Shown one piece after another: positions 28,292 through 33,935 of a stretch of 34,241 nucleotides of DNA. Numbering within the stretch: the stretch's first letter is position 1; every line of letters begins with the position of its first letter. The DNA comes from Synechococcus sp. UW140. GTDB taxonomy: Bacteria; Cyanobacteriota; Cyanobacteriia; PCC-6307; Cyanobiaceae. The position numbers and the translations under genes were made by a program. The notes beneath the pieces are model-generated. The model worked only from the letters and a program-made list of their open reading frames with translations, did not search any database and was not told the origin of the DNA. The DNA lies in assembly GCA_945877115.1 (NCBI GenBank), contig CAMCQR010000023.1, positions 1-34,241 on the forward strand, in the 5' to 3' direction.

Positions 28292-29314
28292 ATGACCCTG
28301 CGCGTAGCGATCAACGGATTCGGCCGCATTGGCCGCAACTTCACGCGTTGCTGGCTCAGCCGAGGTCTCGATACGGGGATCGAGGTCGTGGGTCTTAACG
28401 ACACCTCCGATCCGAAGACGAACTCCCACCTGCTCCAATACGACACCATGTTGGGGCACATCCGCAATGCGGAAGTGAGCTATACCGACGACACGATCGT
28501 CGTTAATGGCAAGCACATCAAGTGCTTCTCGGATCGCAACCCCCTCAACCTTCCCTGGAAGGAGTGGGGCGTTGATTTAGTGATCGAAGCCACCGGCGTT
28601 TTCATTGATCAAAAGGGTGCTGGAAAGCATATTGAGGCGGGCGCCAAAAAGGTGTTGATCACAGCTCCCGGCAAGGGTCCGGGCGTCGGCACCTTCGTTG
28701 TGGGCGTCAATGCTGATCAATACCGACATGAAGATTTCGACATCATCAGCAATGCCAGCTGTACCACCAATTGCATGGCGCCCCTAGTGAAGGTGCTTGA
28801 TCAATCCCTCGGCATCGTTAAGGGGATGATGACGACCACCCACAGCTATACCGGCGACCAACGCATCCTGGATGCCTCCCATCGCGACCTGCGCCGGGCC
28901 CGTGCGGCCGCAGTCAACATCGTGCCTACCAGCACCGGTGCCGCTACCGCCGTGGCGCTTGTCTATCCGCCGATGAAGGGCAAGCTCAATGGCATCGCCA
29001 TGCGGGTGCCGACCCCCAACGTCTCAGTGGTGGATATGGTGCTTGAAGTGAGTCGGGCCACTACTAAAGAAGAAGTGAACGCCATCTTCAAGGCCGCTTC
29101 TGAAAACGGCATGAAGGGCATCATTAAGTATTGCGATTTGCCCCTCGTCTCCACGGACCACGCCGGTACCGATGAATCCACGATTGTGGATGCCGATCTC
29201 ACCATGGTGATGGATGGCAACATGGTGAAAGTAATCTCCTGGTACGACAACGAATGGGGCTATAGCCAGCGAGTTGTTGATCTTGCCGAAGTGGTCGCCA
29301 AGAACTGGAAGTAA
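28292..29314 (+). CDS. gap2: Glyceraldehyde-3-phosphate dehydrogenase, Gap2-type (photosynthetic)
   Basis: 340 residues starting at [17 protein letters not shown], the conserved N-terminal NAD(P) fold. The catalytic Cys157 lies in [29 protein letters not shown] near residue 35 is typical of NADP-using Gap2/GapB enzymes of the Calvin cycle, and [21 protein letters not shown] is the family S-loop. It reduces 1,3-bisphosphoglycerate in the cytosol and also serves gluconeogenesis. The C-terminus ends in EVVAKNWK-stop, and an intrinsic terminator follows. A diverged copy of its last 26 codons plus terminator lies about 3.5 kb downstream at 32749. In related picocyanobacteria I recall thiL next, but here an accessory region follows. 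Confidence 0.97.
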
Positions 29315-29338
29315 GGCTGGGGCCAATCCCCCTTCCTG

Positions 29339-29364
29339 GGCCGTCCTGCGGGGCGGCCTTTTTT
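29339..29364 (+). terminator. Intrinsic terminator of gap2
   Basis: GGCCGTCC and GGGCGGCC pair around a short loop (29339-29358), with one G-T pair, followed by six T residues. It starts 25 bp after the gap stop. A close relative of this hairpin follows the duplicated gap tail at 32856. Confidence 0.85.
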
Positions 29365-29707
29365 GTTGGCTCCTGCCTGGTGGGACCGCCAGGGTTGCCC
29401 AGATCAGCGTCCAACGCTTGGCTGCTGCCCGCCTGCAGCGCTTCTGCCATGGGGTGCGCCAGGGCCTGATCTCAGTCGATGCGGATAGCAGCCGACCGCC
29501 CCGCGGCTGGATCTCGATCACCTGATAGCGCAGCGGCGCTCGGTGGGGGCTTGTCCCGACCCATTAGCCCTTACAAAGCATTGATGACACATTAAAAAGA
29601 GACGATTCAAGATGACAAATAGATTTAGAGGAGTATCTTGACAAAGAAACCGGCCGGGTCGGCACCATAAGACGACCACGGAATTAGACAGGGAAAATAA
29701 AGAAATA
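29365..29707. other. Region downstream of gap without a recognisable gene
   Basis: The first part (to about 29530) is GC-rich and encodes short open frames on both strands that match nothing I know. A few bases and residues near 29385-29410 resemble the stretch after the second gap tail (about 32905-32935), as if both derive from one ancestral flank. The second part (29570-29707) is abruptly AT-rich, with a TTGACA at 29638-29643 but no good -10. This base-composition change marks the start of foreign-looking DNA. Confidence 0.5.
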
Positions 29708-30493
29708 ATGAATGATGAAAACATGTATGTTGATTGGGAGGGGGTCAGAATTGAAGAAGTATGGTTAATTTGTGCTATAAATTTATCCATTCCTGCCCAG
29801 GGCTTTTCAATCCTTTTCCTCCCTGTTCTCTACCCGCTACCTAAACCGATCTGTTTGGCCATGTCTTGCCGTAAGCCCGCCGCAACCCAATCCCTATCGG
29901 CTGGCTCAGCAAAAGCCCTGAATATTCAGATTGTTGTCGATAACGATTTTGCCCTATTCTCCGGTACCAATACAGGCGTCAATACTCTTCTTTATCAGAA
30001 TAACGTTGTTTGGAATTCCCAAGGCCTTCTTGAGGCAATAGCGGATGCACCCTCGACCGACAACGTTTACTACCTATTGGCTATGGGAGGGGGATCCCCA
30101 GAAGAGGCTTTCGGCACCATTGGCAATATTAATATTACTACGGCAACGGGGGTAAAAGTAAGCAACAATCTGGAGGGCTCTCTCTCTGGTTATAGCTTAG
30201 GCGCTGTTACAGACGGATCCTATACTCCCAGCCTTGTGGATGTTCAAGCTGCCTTCCCAACCCTCACATTTTCAGCCCCACCGGCTCCGGGCTGCGCAAC
30301 TGTTTGTAATAATTTCCCTGGCCTCAGCAACGGCCAAAGTTTTCTAATTGATGGTGGAACGGCGGTTCTTTTCGCCATCCCTTATGGCGGTTCCCCTGCT
30401 GCCGTGCCTGGCCCCCTGCCAATCTTCGGAGTTCTGAGCGCATTCCAGGTGTCCAGGCGGATCCGCCGAAGACTTCGGCGCACTGACGGCTGA
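29708..30493 (+). CDS. PEP-CTERM-like surface protein with GPLPIFG tail, unknown function
   Basis: 261 residues if the ATG at 29708 is used; ATG 29861 gives 210. The conserved-looking part starts around AGSAKALNIQIVVDNDFALF, where AGSAKA resembles the end of a signal peptide. The preceding residues do not form a clean signal sequence, so the N-terminus may be altered. The middle is Asn/Thr/Gly-rich beta-type sequence, with a short CATVCNN cysteine pair. The C-terminus is the three-part sorting signal type: AVPGPLPIFG, a short hydrophobic stretch, then RRIRRRLRR. This matches PEP-CTERM-like anchors processed by exosortase in cyanobacteria, which would place it on the envelope or outside. Lower GC and AT-rich flank suggest acquisition. 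Confidence 0.65.
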   Translation: MNDENMYVDWEGVRIEEVWLICAINLSIPAQGFSILFLPVLYPLPKPICLAMSCRKPAATQSLSAGSAKALNIQIVVDNDFALFSGTNTGVNTLLYQNNVVWNSQGLLEAIADAPSTDNVYYLLAMGGGSPEEAFGTIGNINITTATGVKVSNNLEGSLSGYSLGAVTDGSYTPSLVDVQAAFPTLTFSAPPAPGCATVCNNFPGLSNGQSFLIDGGTAVLFAIPYGGSPAAVPGPLPIFGVLSAFQVSRRIRRRLRRTDG

Positions 30494-30731: not shown

Positions 30732-31777
30732 TGTGTAGTCCCACCACGTTGTTCAGCTGACAAAGGGGTGTGAGGTCGCCAGGGTCGGGGTGTCACCGCC
30801 CGTCCCAAGACCTCACTCCCCATGCATAGCCACCCCAATGCCCGACTGACGCCGATCAGTCGGGAACGCCTGATCCGCAGGCACCTTGAGGATCGTGTGC
30901 CGCTCAAGGCCCTTGCGGCACAAGCCGGGATCAGCCTGCGCAGTGCTTACAAGTGGCTGGCGCGGTTCCGCGATGGCGGCATAGCGGCACTGGCGGATCG
31001 ACGGAGTGTTCGCCGCACCCAGCGGCGGACGCTCGATCCGCAGCAACTGCAGCAGGCCGTGGACTTGCGGCACCAGCGCTGCACGCTCAGGCGCATTGCC
31101 AAGGCCCTCTGCGCGCCTCTGGCCACCGTTGGCCGGCTCATGAAGGACTTGGGGCTGGGACGACTCAAGAACCTTGACCCCAAACCTCCTGTGCGGCGCT
31201 ACCAGTGGGAGCGGCCGGGCGACATGATCCATGTCGACACCAAACAGCTGGCGAGGTTTGAGCGCGTAGGACACCGGATCACCGGTGACCGCCGTCAAGG
31301 CTGCTCACGAGGCGCCGGCTACGAGAAGGTGCACGTCGCCATCGACGATGCCACCCGCCTGGCCTACGTCGAGGTGCTCGCCGACGAGCAGAGAGCGACG
31401 ACTCTTGGATTCCTGGCCCGGGCAGTCGGCTGGTTCTCTGAGCAGGGGATCACCTGCCGACGGATCCTCTCGGACAACGGCCCCTCCTACCGCTCAGGTG
31501 ACTGGCGAAAAGCCTGCCAGGCACTGGCCCTGAAACCCATCCGCACCAAGCCCTACACGCCGCAGACCAACGGCAAGGCTGAGCGTTTCATCAAAACCCT
31601 CCTGGTGGAATGGGCGTACGTCATGTCGTACCAGACCTCCCAGTAGCGGAACCACTGGCTACCTCGGTATCTGGGGATCTATAACGGCCACAGGTGCCAC
31701 ATGGCTCTCGGTGGCCTCACCCCTCAGCAGTCCTTACAGCGGCTGCTGATCGCTGAATGACCTGGTGAGAAAACACA
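30732..31777 (+). mobile_element. IS481-family insertion sequence, 1046 bp, with 6-bp target duplication
   Basis: Imperfect terminal inverted repeats are visible: TGTGTAGTCCCACCA at the left end (30732) and, on the reverse strand, TGTGTTTTCTCACCA at the right end (31777), identical at 12 of 15 positions. Both ends are flanked by CCTAGA (30726-30731 and 31778-31783). This is the NCTAGN 6-bp target duplication described for IS481/IS1002 of Bordetella, so the family assignment rests on protein, ends and target together. One transposase gene fills the element and is interrupted by an amber codon. The intact duplication implies a fairly recent insertion. Confidence 0.92.
30822..31760 (+). pseudogene. 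IS481-family DDE transposase interrupted by an in-frame TAG
   Basis: The frame begins with a helix-turn-helix (VPLKALAAQAGISLRSAYKWLARFRDGG) and an integrase core with the DDE triad Asp139 (IHVDTKQL), Asp218 (LSDNGPSY) and Glu254 (GKAERFIKTL). A TAG at 31644-31646 ends translation after 274 residues. The same frame continues without further stops to TGA 31758-31760 and encodes the normal C-terminal family segment (RNHWLPRYLGIYNGHRCHMAL, then GGLTPQQSLQRLL). The gene is thus a single nonsense mutation away from intact. The truncated product keeps the whole triad but loses the last 37 residues, so activity is doubtful. The GC-rich codon use is like the host. Confidence 0.9.
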
Positions 31778-31792: not shown

Positions 31793-31798
31793 CATAAT
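31793..31798 (+). promoter_or_regulatory. Possible -10 element for the AroE-like gene, next to the IS end
   Basis: CATAAT (31793-31798) lies 17 bp before the GTG start. A matching -35 would fall inside the right end of the insertion sequence, but only a poor candidate is present there. Weak pattern match. Confidence 0.2.
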
Positions 31799-31815: not shown

Positions 31816-32673
31816 GTGATTTCCATGATTCCTCCCCAGAAGCAGATGACTGGGATGCTGGGTCATCCGGTGGCGGAAAATCCCATCGATATCATGTTTG
31901 ATGCCGTTTATTCCCATTACGGCTTGAATTGGCAATTCTGGAAAAGCGATGTGCCGTCGGTTGAGTTGTTGCGACCTGCGGTGGCGGGCTTGGCGCCTCT
32001 GGGTTATCGAGGGGTGGGTATCACCGTGCCCTACAAGGTTGAGGTGATTCCGCTTCTCGATGAGGTCGACGCCGATGTCAAGGCCATTGGGGCAGCAAAC
32101 TATCTCACCATTGAGAACGGTCGGCTGATTGGTCATAACAATGATGGCAAGGGTGTGGTGAAAGCGATCCAAAAACAACGCAGTCTCAAGGGCGAGCATG
32201 TGGTGATGCTGGGGGCCGGTGGGGCCGGGCGGGCGATGGCGGTGGAGATCGCCTGGGCCGGCGCCGCCCAGCTCACCCTGGTGACCCGCCGCGAAGCCCA
32301 GGGCCGGGAGGTGGCCGAACGGATTACGGCGGTGTCGGCGGTTCCGGCCACCTGGCAGGCCTGGAGCTCACCGGTGCGAGTGCCGCCGGGCACCACCCTG
32401 CTGATGAATGCCACCCACCTGGGTTGCGCCCCGGATCTGGAACCCGTGCCGATCGACTGGTCCAGCGTCGAGCCCGGTTGCCTGGCGGTGGATGTGATCA
32501 CCAATCCGCGCATCACGCCGTTTCTGCAGACGGCCCGGGAGCATGGCTGCGGTGTGGTTGATGGGGTGGAGATGCTGGTGCAATTGGCGATGCAGCTCTT
32601 TACCCTCTGGACTGGAATTGCTCCGGAGGAGAAGGTGTTCCAGCGGGCGGTGGCGGCGGCCCTGGGCGAGTAG
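31816..32673 (+). CDS. Shikimate dehydrogenase (AroE)-like protein lacking the shikimate-binding serines
   Basis: 285 residues from a GTG at 31816 preceded by AGGGAAG; ATG 31825 is the alternative. The fold matches AroE/YdiB: TVPYK with catalytic Lys74, IGAANYL, GHNNDGKG with catalytic Asp110, the NAD(P) loop GAGGAG (133-138), MNATHLG and DGVEMLVQLA near the C-terminus. In true shikimate dehydrogenases the N-terminal GxPxxHSxSP loop supplies two serines for the shikimate carboxylate. Here it reads GHPVAENPID, with both serines and the His replaced. The chemistry is probably conserved but the substrate is likely different, as in SDH-like or quinate/aminoshikimate paralogues. It begins 32 bp after the IS target duplication, in the accessory region, so it is probably not the housekeeping aroE. 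Confidence 0.85.
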   Translation: MISMIPPQKQMTGMLGHPVAENPIDIMFDAVYSHYGLNWQFWKSDVPSVELLRPAVAGLAPLGYRGVGITVPYKVEVIPLLDEVDADVKAIGAANYLTIENGRLIGHNNDGKGVVKAIQKQRSLKGEHVVMLGAGGAGRAMAVEIAWAGAAQLTLVTRREAQGREVAERITAVSAVPATWQAWSSPVRVPPGTTLLMNATHLGCAPDLEPVPIDWSSVEPGCLAVDVITNPRITPFLQTAREHGCGVVDGVEMLVQLAMQLFTLWTGIAPEEKVFQRAVAAALGE

Positions 32674-32696
32674 GGGTCGGCGCCTTGCTCTCTGTA

Positions 32697-32747
32697 GTCA
32701 ACACCGATTTCGCCACGGCCGGCAGCTTCATGGTGGGCACCACCAGT
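32697..32747 (+). pseudogene. Fragment of a third PEP-CTERM-like gene
   Basis: Seventeen codons read [17 protein letters not shown]. This matches the segment just before the GPLPLFG tail of the downstream protein (NEFATAGTVIVGTTA, about 33780-33826). The fragment breaks off exactly where the gap-tail copy begins, so the junction is a recombination breakpoint. Confidence 0.7.
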
Positions 32748-32748
32748 C

Positions 32749-32826
32749 ATCTCCTGGTACGACAACGAATGGGGCTACAGCCAGCGTGTCGTTGATCTCG
32801 CCGAAGTGGTTGCCAAGAACTGGAAG
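32749..32826 (+). pseudogene. gap2: Diverged copy of the last 26 codons of gap
   Basis: All 26 codons align without gaps to the C-terminal end of gap2 (29234-29311), with 73 of 78 bases identical. The five differences are all synonymous third positions. The stop codon is changed from TAA to GAA. The upstream part of the gene is absent. Purely synonymous change means this tail evolved under selection as part of a working gap gene elsewhere before it was left here, probably by recombination with DNA of a related strain. Confidence 0.92.
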
Positions 32827-32855
32827 GAAGGCAGGGGCCCTTCTCCACCATCAAG

Positions 32856-32880
32856 GCCGTCCTTCGGGGCGGCATTTTGT
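32856..32880 (+). terminator. Terminator hairpin following the gap-tail copy
   Basis: GCCGTCC and GGGCGGC pair around a short loop, followed by ATTTTGTTGTTT. It occupies the same relative place as the gap2 terminator at 29339 and shares much of its stem sequence, so it was carried along with the tail. Confidence 0.75.
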
Positions 32881-33284
32881 TGTTTGGGCTGGTCGGTTGC
32901 CCACGGCTGCCCGGATCTACACCCAACGGCTGACCGTTCGCGGGACCATCTCCGGGCAACCATGTCCTAGCTGCTGGACCGCCTCGGTAGTACGTGGGTG
33001 ATCCCTGCGCCACGAGTTGCCCGAACCCCTGCGCCAGCATGTGGCCCGGGGGCGGGCGGCTGGCGCCCTGAGGGCCCTTGCCAGCTCCTTAGCCCTTGGC
33101 TGACGAGGTGTTTTGCTTCGACCGACAGGGTTGGCAGCATCGCCGCAGCGGCAGTGAACTGACTCCAGCCGCCCATGGCCGGCCTGCTGTTCGGCGTGCC
33201 CTGTCCAATTGGAGCACTGGCATTGTCCCCCCCCCAGCAGGAATAGCGCATTATTCGAAAGATTTTTTTAGAATCTACGATCTA

Positions 33285-33935
33285 ATGACACGATTCCATT
33301 GCCTTAGGGCCTCTTGCCTGGCGGCTGCGATCGGTGGCTCGGCATTGGTGGGTATGGCTCCCGCCGCCCAGGCCGCTATTACCGAGTACACCAACAAGGC
33401 CGCGTTTGAGGCGGCACTGGCGCCTGGGGCCTATACCGAAACCCAAATGTATGGCAAGTATCCAAATTATTCAGGAGGCTCGGGTTTTTCCTATACAGCC
33501 GCAGCAACAGCCGGCAGCTATAATATATCCCCTAATGATCTGACCACTAGTGGTAGCGTCCCATCTACTCTCACATTTTCTTTTGGTTCGGGAATCAAGG
33601 CTTTCGGGGGATATTTTTACGTTAGTGATCATACTGATAGCGTTGTCAGCAGTAGCTTGCAAATTAGGCTTAATAGCAACTCCTTTGCAACGACGAAAAC
33701 GCCAACCTCGACCACTACATTTTATGGCTTTATTTCTGATATGGATTTAAACGACGCAACCATTGCTGTCAATTTTGTTAATGAATTCGCCACGGCTGGC
33801 ACCGTGATCGTCGGCACCACGGCTTCGGCGCCTGTCGCCGCGCCTGGCCCTCTGCCCCTGTTTGGCACCGCTGCCGCCTTCGGCTGGAGCCGGCGCCTGC
33901 GCCGCCGTCTGGTTGGCGGCCGCCCCGGTTGCTGA
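33285..33935 (+). CDS. PEP-CTERM-like secreted protein with GPLPLFG tail, unknown function
   Basis: 216 residues from the ATG at 33285. An ATG further upstream (33096) is in frame but adds sequence unlike a signal peptide. The N-terminus MTRFHCLRASCLAAAIGGSALVGMAPAAQAA is a good Sec signal with an AQA cleavage site. The mature part (ITEYTNKAAFEAALAPGAY onward) is Ser/Thr/Gly-rich with predicted beta strands, ending in VAAPGPLPLFG, a short AAAFGW hydrophobic region and RRLRRRL. This is the three-part PEP-CTERM-like sorting tail. The same pattern occurs in the protein at 29708 and, as a fragment, at 32697. Exosortase is not in the window. Codon use in the middle is more AT-rich than the core genes. 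Confidence 0.75.
   Translation: MTRFHCLRASCLAAAIGGSALVGMAPAAQAAITEYTNKAAFEAALAPGAYTETQMYGKYPNYSGGSGFSYTAAATAGSYNISPNDLTTSGSVPSTLTFSFGSGIKAFGGYFYVSDHTDSVVSSSLQIRLNSNSFATTKTPTSTTTFYGFISDMDLNDATIAVNFVNEFATAGTVIVGTTASAPVAAPGPLPLFGTAAAFGWSRRLRRRLVGGRPGC

Follow-up and report, generated by a model that had tools for sequence, protein, structure and literature searches.

Most characterised branches of the shikimate-dehydrogenase (SDH) family besides 5-ketofructose reductase (5KFR) act on cyclic acids. In Arabidopsis SDH (PMC4892741), the C1 carboxylate of the substrate is held by Ser336, Ser338 and Tyr550, the C4 hydroxyl by Asn406, and the C5 hydroxyl by Gln578 and Gln582; Thr422 sets the orientation of the substrate, the catalytic residues are Lys385 and Asp423, and the Arg of an NRT motif is a mark of NADP(H). 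The quinate-type enzymes (YdiB of E. coli and the quinate dehydrogenase of C. glutamicum) keep an S-x-[ST]-P loop, the Tyr and the Gln. The canonical loop Ser pair is missing from the sampled relatives of SDH-L (HI0607, 1npy) and of the 4k28-type protein of P. putida. The 5KFR of Gluconobacter sp. CHM43 (7cok, 7col) reads A-[ED]-N-P where the canonical loop has H-S-x-S and also lacks the carboxylate triad (N, T and P at the three positions), and it retains the Thr and the first Gln. Promiscuous reduction of iminosugars by ordinary SDHs is reported in PMC9881201, which shows that sugar-like ligands can be accommodated by the fold. PMC7954740 describes an SDH-family protein of C. pasteurianum that shares 48% similarity with a 5KFR yet showed no activity towards 5-ketofructose, a point against reading a sugar substrate from kinship with 5KFR.

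The window, by which we mean the whole stretch of 34,241 nucleotides that was analysed, contains a forward-strand open reading frame of 285 codons that begins at a GTG (31816–32673), and we number residues of the product from this codon. In 60 of 83 rows of relatives, however, an ATG, GTG or TTG falls exactly at the site of the ATG at 31825; the latter is therefore the more likely start, and the predicted product of 31825–32673 would be 282 aa long. The product contains the Pfam N-terminal domain Shikimate_dh_N (PF08501; 47.1 bits against a cut-off of 27), and it has the SDH fold, with a TM-score of 0.84 to 1nvt. NCBIfam aroE models cover it over nearly its full length with scores under all curated cut-offs listed, the nearest being TIGR00507 (195.3 against 200.2), and a comparison of E-values indicates that at least one member of the family exceeds the TIGR00507 cut-off. 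Because members score near or over the cut-off of an aroE model, automatic annotation is likely to name them shikimate dehydrogenase, falsely implying two routes to shikimate.

The sequence-only reading had described an AroE-like protein that kept Lys74, Asp110 and the NAD(P) loop, with a substrate loop rewritten to GHPVAENPID, and each of these features was found in the reading frame. The loop occupies residues 16–25 (31861–31890, forward strand, as are the features that follow) in place of the GxPxxHSxSP of AroE. Lys74, in the motif ITVPYK (codon 32035–32037), aligns with Lys385 of Arabidopsis SDH and is predicted to be catalytic from the role of that residue (PMC4892741). Asn109 and Asp110 lie in GHNNDGKG (32140–32145); Asp110 is also predicted to be catalytic, and Asn109 stands where Thr is usual. 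The dinucleotide-binding loop GAGGAG was located by alignment at residues 133–138 (32212–32229), and this pattern together with T-R-R at 157–159 suggests NADP(H) as the cofactor.

A scan of genome contigs found 110 relatives, of which we kept 80, all with at least 69% identity. Of 86 aligned rows, 85 had the same residues at all ten loop positions and one was gapped there, which shows that the loop substitution is fixed and is not noise. In the same alignment, K74 was identical in the 85 rows with letters at that position, and N95, D110, K112, Q256 and L257 were found in every row. A 42-member alignment of the family had a mean column identity of 82%, and the catalytic pair K74 and D110 and the dinucleotide loop were invariant in it. 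The full-length reading frame and these invariant motifs rule out a pseudogene or degenerate aroE. A literature search (with most subscription journals outside its reach) found no description of the family, which is apparently uncharacterised, distinct and highly conserved, with 5KFR as its closest relative.

This relationship was supported by sequence, structure and phylogeny. The best PDB sequence match to the product was 7cok (174 bits, about 36% identity), followed by 1nvt (145 bits). An AF2 model (pLDDT 88.5, pTM 0.85) gave the SDH fold, with 7cok_B (Z 34.5) and 7col_A (Z 34.0) as best structural matches; the highest-scoring entry for any other enzyme reached 31.2. The YdiB and C. glutamicum type matched at Z about 31, and P. 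putida Ael1 (3pwz) at 26.8. In a 41-row tree, the 15 rows of the window family formed one clade (100/100) that was sister to the 5KFR clade (99/98), and a 60-row tree gave the same sister position (100/99). The position remained (99/97) when residues 1–45 and four pocket motifs were removed, indicating that the grouping is not a product of the shared loop. In all three trees the window family was sister to the 5KFR clade and not nested in it. It also fell outside all sampled AroE branches in the 41-row and 60-row trees, where YdiB and the quinate dehydrogenases occupied separate branches; SDH-L and the 4k28-type protein differ in loop sequence and sit on distant branches. Thus, the comparison with AroE, YdiB and SDH-L and the structure prediction, both proposed from the sequence, placed the family apart from these groups and beside 5KFR. 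For these trees, L118 (a near-duplicate of L117) was left out of the 41-row and 60-row sets, and the long branches L095, L147 and L154 were left out of the 60-row and motif-removed sets. Canonical AroE sequences were pulled by loop pattern from 12 loci, 10 of which yielded a sequence; L119 and L120 yielded none. L119 is the locus in carrier genome G401 that scored 54 bits, and its match is probably the family gene itself.

We mapped the substrate contacts of Arabidopsis SDH onto the 86-row alignment; the equivalences are our own mapping, in which the C-terminal helix is without gaps. The carboxylate ligands Ser336, Ser338 and Tyr550 correspond to N22, I24 and T229, so the Ser-x-Ser and Tyr of the AroE carboxylate site are absent from the product. 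The Gln pair that binds the C5 hydroxyl is lost (Gln578 to L257, Gln582 to L261), and Thr422 corresponds to N109. Conversely, the Asn that binds the C4 hydroxyl is kept (Asn406 to N95), as is the catalytic dyad (Lys385 and Asp423 to K74 and D110), and NRT reads T-R-R. The proposal of a rewritten loop was borne out, although the changes go beyond the loop: N109, T229, L257 and position 68 of the pocket are different as well. With Asn, Ile and Thr in place of all three carboxylate ligands, an acid is probably not what the enzyme acts on. Loss of the loop alone is no pointer to sugars, as the SDH-L and 4k28-like branches are also without the canonical Ser pair.

We consider it probable, from the motifs and the sister position, that the product is an SDH-fold oxidoreductase that depends on NADP(H), belongs to a family sister to 5KFR and has a neutral keto-sugar or keto-polyol as its substrate. 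Such an enzyme would reduce the ketone of this uncharged substrate, or catalyse the reverse reaction. The carbonyl carbon would receive hydride from NADPH, with Lys74 and Asp110 handling the proton. The pocket, unlike those of AroE and 5KFR, would be built by the E-N-P loop, N95, N109, T229 and perhaps Q256 and Q260. Binding of a polyol is not assured, however, because the C5-hydroxyl Gln retained in 5KFR is a Leu (L257) here. The earlier suggestion of an SDH fold acting on a substrate other than shikimate is supported by the separate canonical aroE in the genome (see below); of the acid or sugar derivative that it offered, the sugar is favoured by the sister position to 5KFR, and the acid is less supported because the carboxylate ligands are all replaced. 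More tentatively, the family may constitute a branch of the SDH superfamily not described before, with members in at least five phyla, whose NADP(H)-dependent reaction would use a neutral keto-sugar or keto-polyol beyond those of the characterised members. Such conservation beside 5KFR suggests that sugar-acting SDH-fold enzymes are broader than one acetic-acid-bacterial type. The family offers a concrete target for assay, and we regard it as a case of probable misannotation and not as a categorically new system.

An organic acid other than shikimate, for example a quinate-, aminoquinate- or dehydroquinate-like compound bound at a rearranged carboxylate site, is an unlikely substrate. Cyclic acids are the rule among characterised branches other than 5KFR, and Asn22 and Thr229 could still give hydrogen bonds to a carboxylate. 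Nevertheless, the three carboxylate ligands have changed, the family groups with the sole branch whose substrate has no carboxylate, and there were no quinate-catabolism genes among the Pfam matches listed for neighbours.

It is also unlikely that the enzyme is a 5KFR proper, detoxifying or recovering 5-keto-D-fructose, the substrate of 7cok. The two share the sister position in three trees, the best match in sequence and in structure, the Lys/Asp dyad, the DGKG motif, an Arg at the NRT-like position, and the [ED]-N-P loop (found in seven of eight rows of the 5KFR clade, with G-N-P in L160). Yet identity is at least 69% within the family and no higher than about 39% to the plasmid proteins that resemble 5KFR. 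All five pocket positions compared also differ from 7cok to the family: T24 to I, N68 to A, G, C or T, T109 to N, P229 to T, and Q257 to L. That is, because the pocket differs from that of 5KFR as well (N109, T229, L257), the neutral keto-sugar or keto-polyol favoured here is probably akin to 5-ketofructose but a different compound.

The surroundings of the genes argue against a 5KFR proper as well. A GMC oxidoreductase gene adjoins four of the seven 5KFR-clade members whose surroundings were examined, and one more has a sugar-epimerase-type neighbour. The four are plasmid homologues from Agrobacterium, Thioclava, Gemmobacter and Rhizobium, about 37–39% identical to the gene product and 56–60% identical to 7cok, with the same E-N-P loop; each directly follows the GMC gene (three annotated, the fourth identified by Pfam). 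These alphaproteobacterial plasmid cassettes (L090–L093), of which the three annotated ones also carry an AraC regulator, look like a sugar oxidation/reduction module. In contrast, a sugar-oxidase neighbour is not conserved in the window family. Among 142 immediate neighbours of loci L010–L089 (counting in-frame neighbours about 240 bases or longer), no Pfam family occurred more than six times, the commonest being PRPP synthetase (6) and superoxide dismutase (5). Thirty neighbours scanned singly included none that was conserved, and clustering of neighbours on ORF lists and by a heuristic gene caller gave no conserved partner of the gene. PF00732 matched in all 28 genomes tested, carriers and non-carriers of the family alike, and the GMC link of the 5KFR clade is therefore not transferable to the family. 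The substrate is thus not betrayed by any conserved neighbour, and the want of a conserved operon partner counts against the keto-sugar reading too.

That the product is a shikimate dehydrogenase of diverged loop, kept as a redundant or back-up enzyme, is very improbable, despite the retained dyad and fold, the TIGR00507 score just under the cut-off and the family member that appears to exceed it. The sequence-only reading had asked whether the genome has a separate canonical aroE, and one is present: a second PF08501 gene at G000:C30:5668–6492 (91.9 bits), with the canonical loop GDPLRHTLSP and a score of 356.6 against the NF001314 equivalog cut-off of 248 bits. This copy rules out the gene as the only aroE of the genome. 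The two products share the fold, the Lys/Asp catalytic pair and the loop that binds the dinucleotide; however, they are 31% identical, the family lies in a different clade, and it is without the three carboxylate-binding residues and the C5-hydroxyl Gln of AroE. At least two PF08501 genes were found in all 22 carrier genomes examined (21 distinct, as the contig and coordinates for G093 are identical to those for G390), although the second in G401 matches only weakly and in part (27.2 bits). The second SDH gene in the carriers tested, the position outside all AroE branches sampled and the family-wide loss of the Ser, Ser, Tyr and Gln contacts all speak against a back-up role. A non-catalytic regulator or binding protein that keeps the fold would fit a stand-alone gene whose operon partner is not conserved, but is hardly credible given the invariance of the catalytic Lys, Asp and dinucleotide loop in the 42-member alignment.

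The distribution of the family across genomes is patchy. Record titles assign carriers to five phyla (Cyanobacteriota, Planctomycetota, Actinomycetota, Verrucomicrobiota and Pseudomonadota), but bin labels are uncertain: they are the submitters' titles, and some are probably wrong, such as that of L011, which is titled Bifidobacterium and falls among cyanobacteria. The tree across the five phyla was a quick one with a very long outgroup branch, from which L006 and L054 were left out. Members were found in 27 of 201 genomes of the window's taxonomic family (two of them partial matches, and its own genome counted) and in 6 of 386 sampled genomes of its phylum. In Pseudomonadota, the centre genome was the sole carrier among 57 genomes of its family and 274 of its class; among 398 of the phylum it was the only one above 60% identity, and 20 others matched at 30–38%. 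In viral contigs, none of 42 pattern matches was confirmed as a relative of the family. Two diverged copies, a few kb apart and on opposite strands, were observed in L015 and in genome G763 (contig C1), those of G763 being 86% and 75% identical to the window's gene.

An IS481-family element (30732–31777, forward strand) lies 5' of the gene, between it and an upstream ORF; it has short inverted ends, CCTAGA on both sides and a transposase ORF at 30822–31646. The element is missing from the relative L054, which is 89.7% identical over 1173 aligned upstream bases. The L054 copy of the gene itself (1211–1916) lacks about 143 bp, not a multiple of three, and is either a pseudogene or an assembly error. 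Relatives show the order murC–gap–gene, with the gene downstream of gap in L010, L012, L014 and L016. We concluded that the gene, linked to gap, was in place before the IS481 element inserted next to it. The gene had been described from the sequence as lying in an accessory region beside an IS; the IS is there, but "accessory" is only partly apt because the murC–gap–gene order is kept in relatives. Independent acquisition, also proposed, fits the patchy spread over five phyla, but recent arrival with the IS does not, since relatives keep the gene downstream of gap and L054 is free of the element. A suggested link to the neighbouring surface proteins found no support in the tally of 142 neighbours, and a link to these proteins or to the IS was rejected on the basis of this tally, the gap linkage in relatives and the IS-free L054.

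A CATAAT hexamer (31793–31798, forward strand), a putative −10-like element, precedes the gene and is also found upstream of relatives such as L010–L013, L016 and L054. The IS481 element ends 15 bases before it, and from this spacing the −35 region of the gene may have been replaced by the element. The ORFs at 29708–30493 and 33096–33935 had no Pfam or NCBIfam match; we take their C-terminal ends to be PEP-CTERM-like. Downstream of the gene, a fragment at 32675–32743 matches L054 (2365–2433) and is followed by a partial copy of the gap 3' end at 32745–32928, which is 79% identical over 189 bp to 29230–29416 and, within the coding part, agrees at 75 of 81 bases. This flank (32675–32928), with its L054-like fragment and partial gap copy, looks like a recombination scar.
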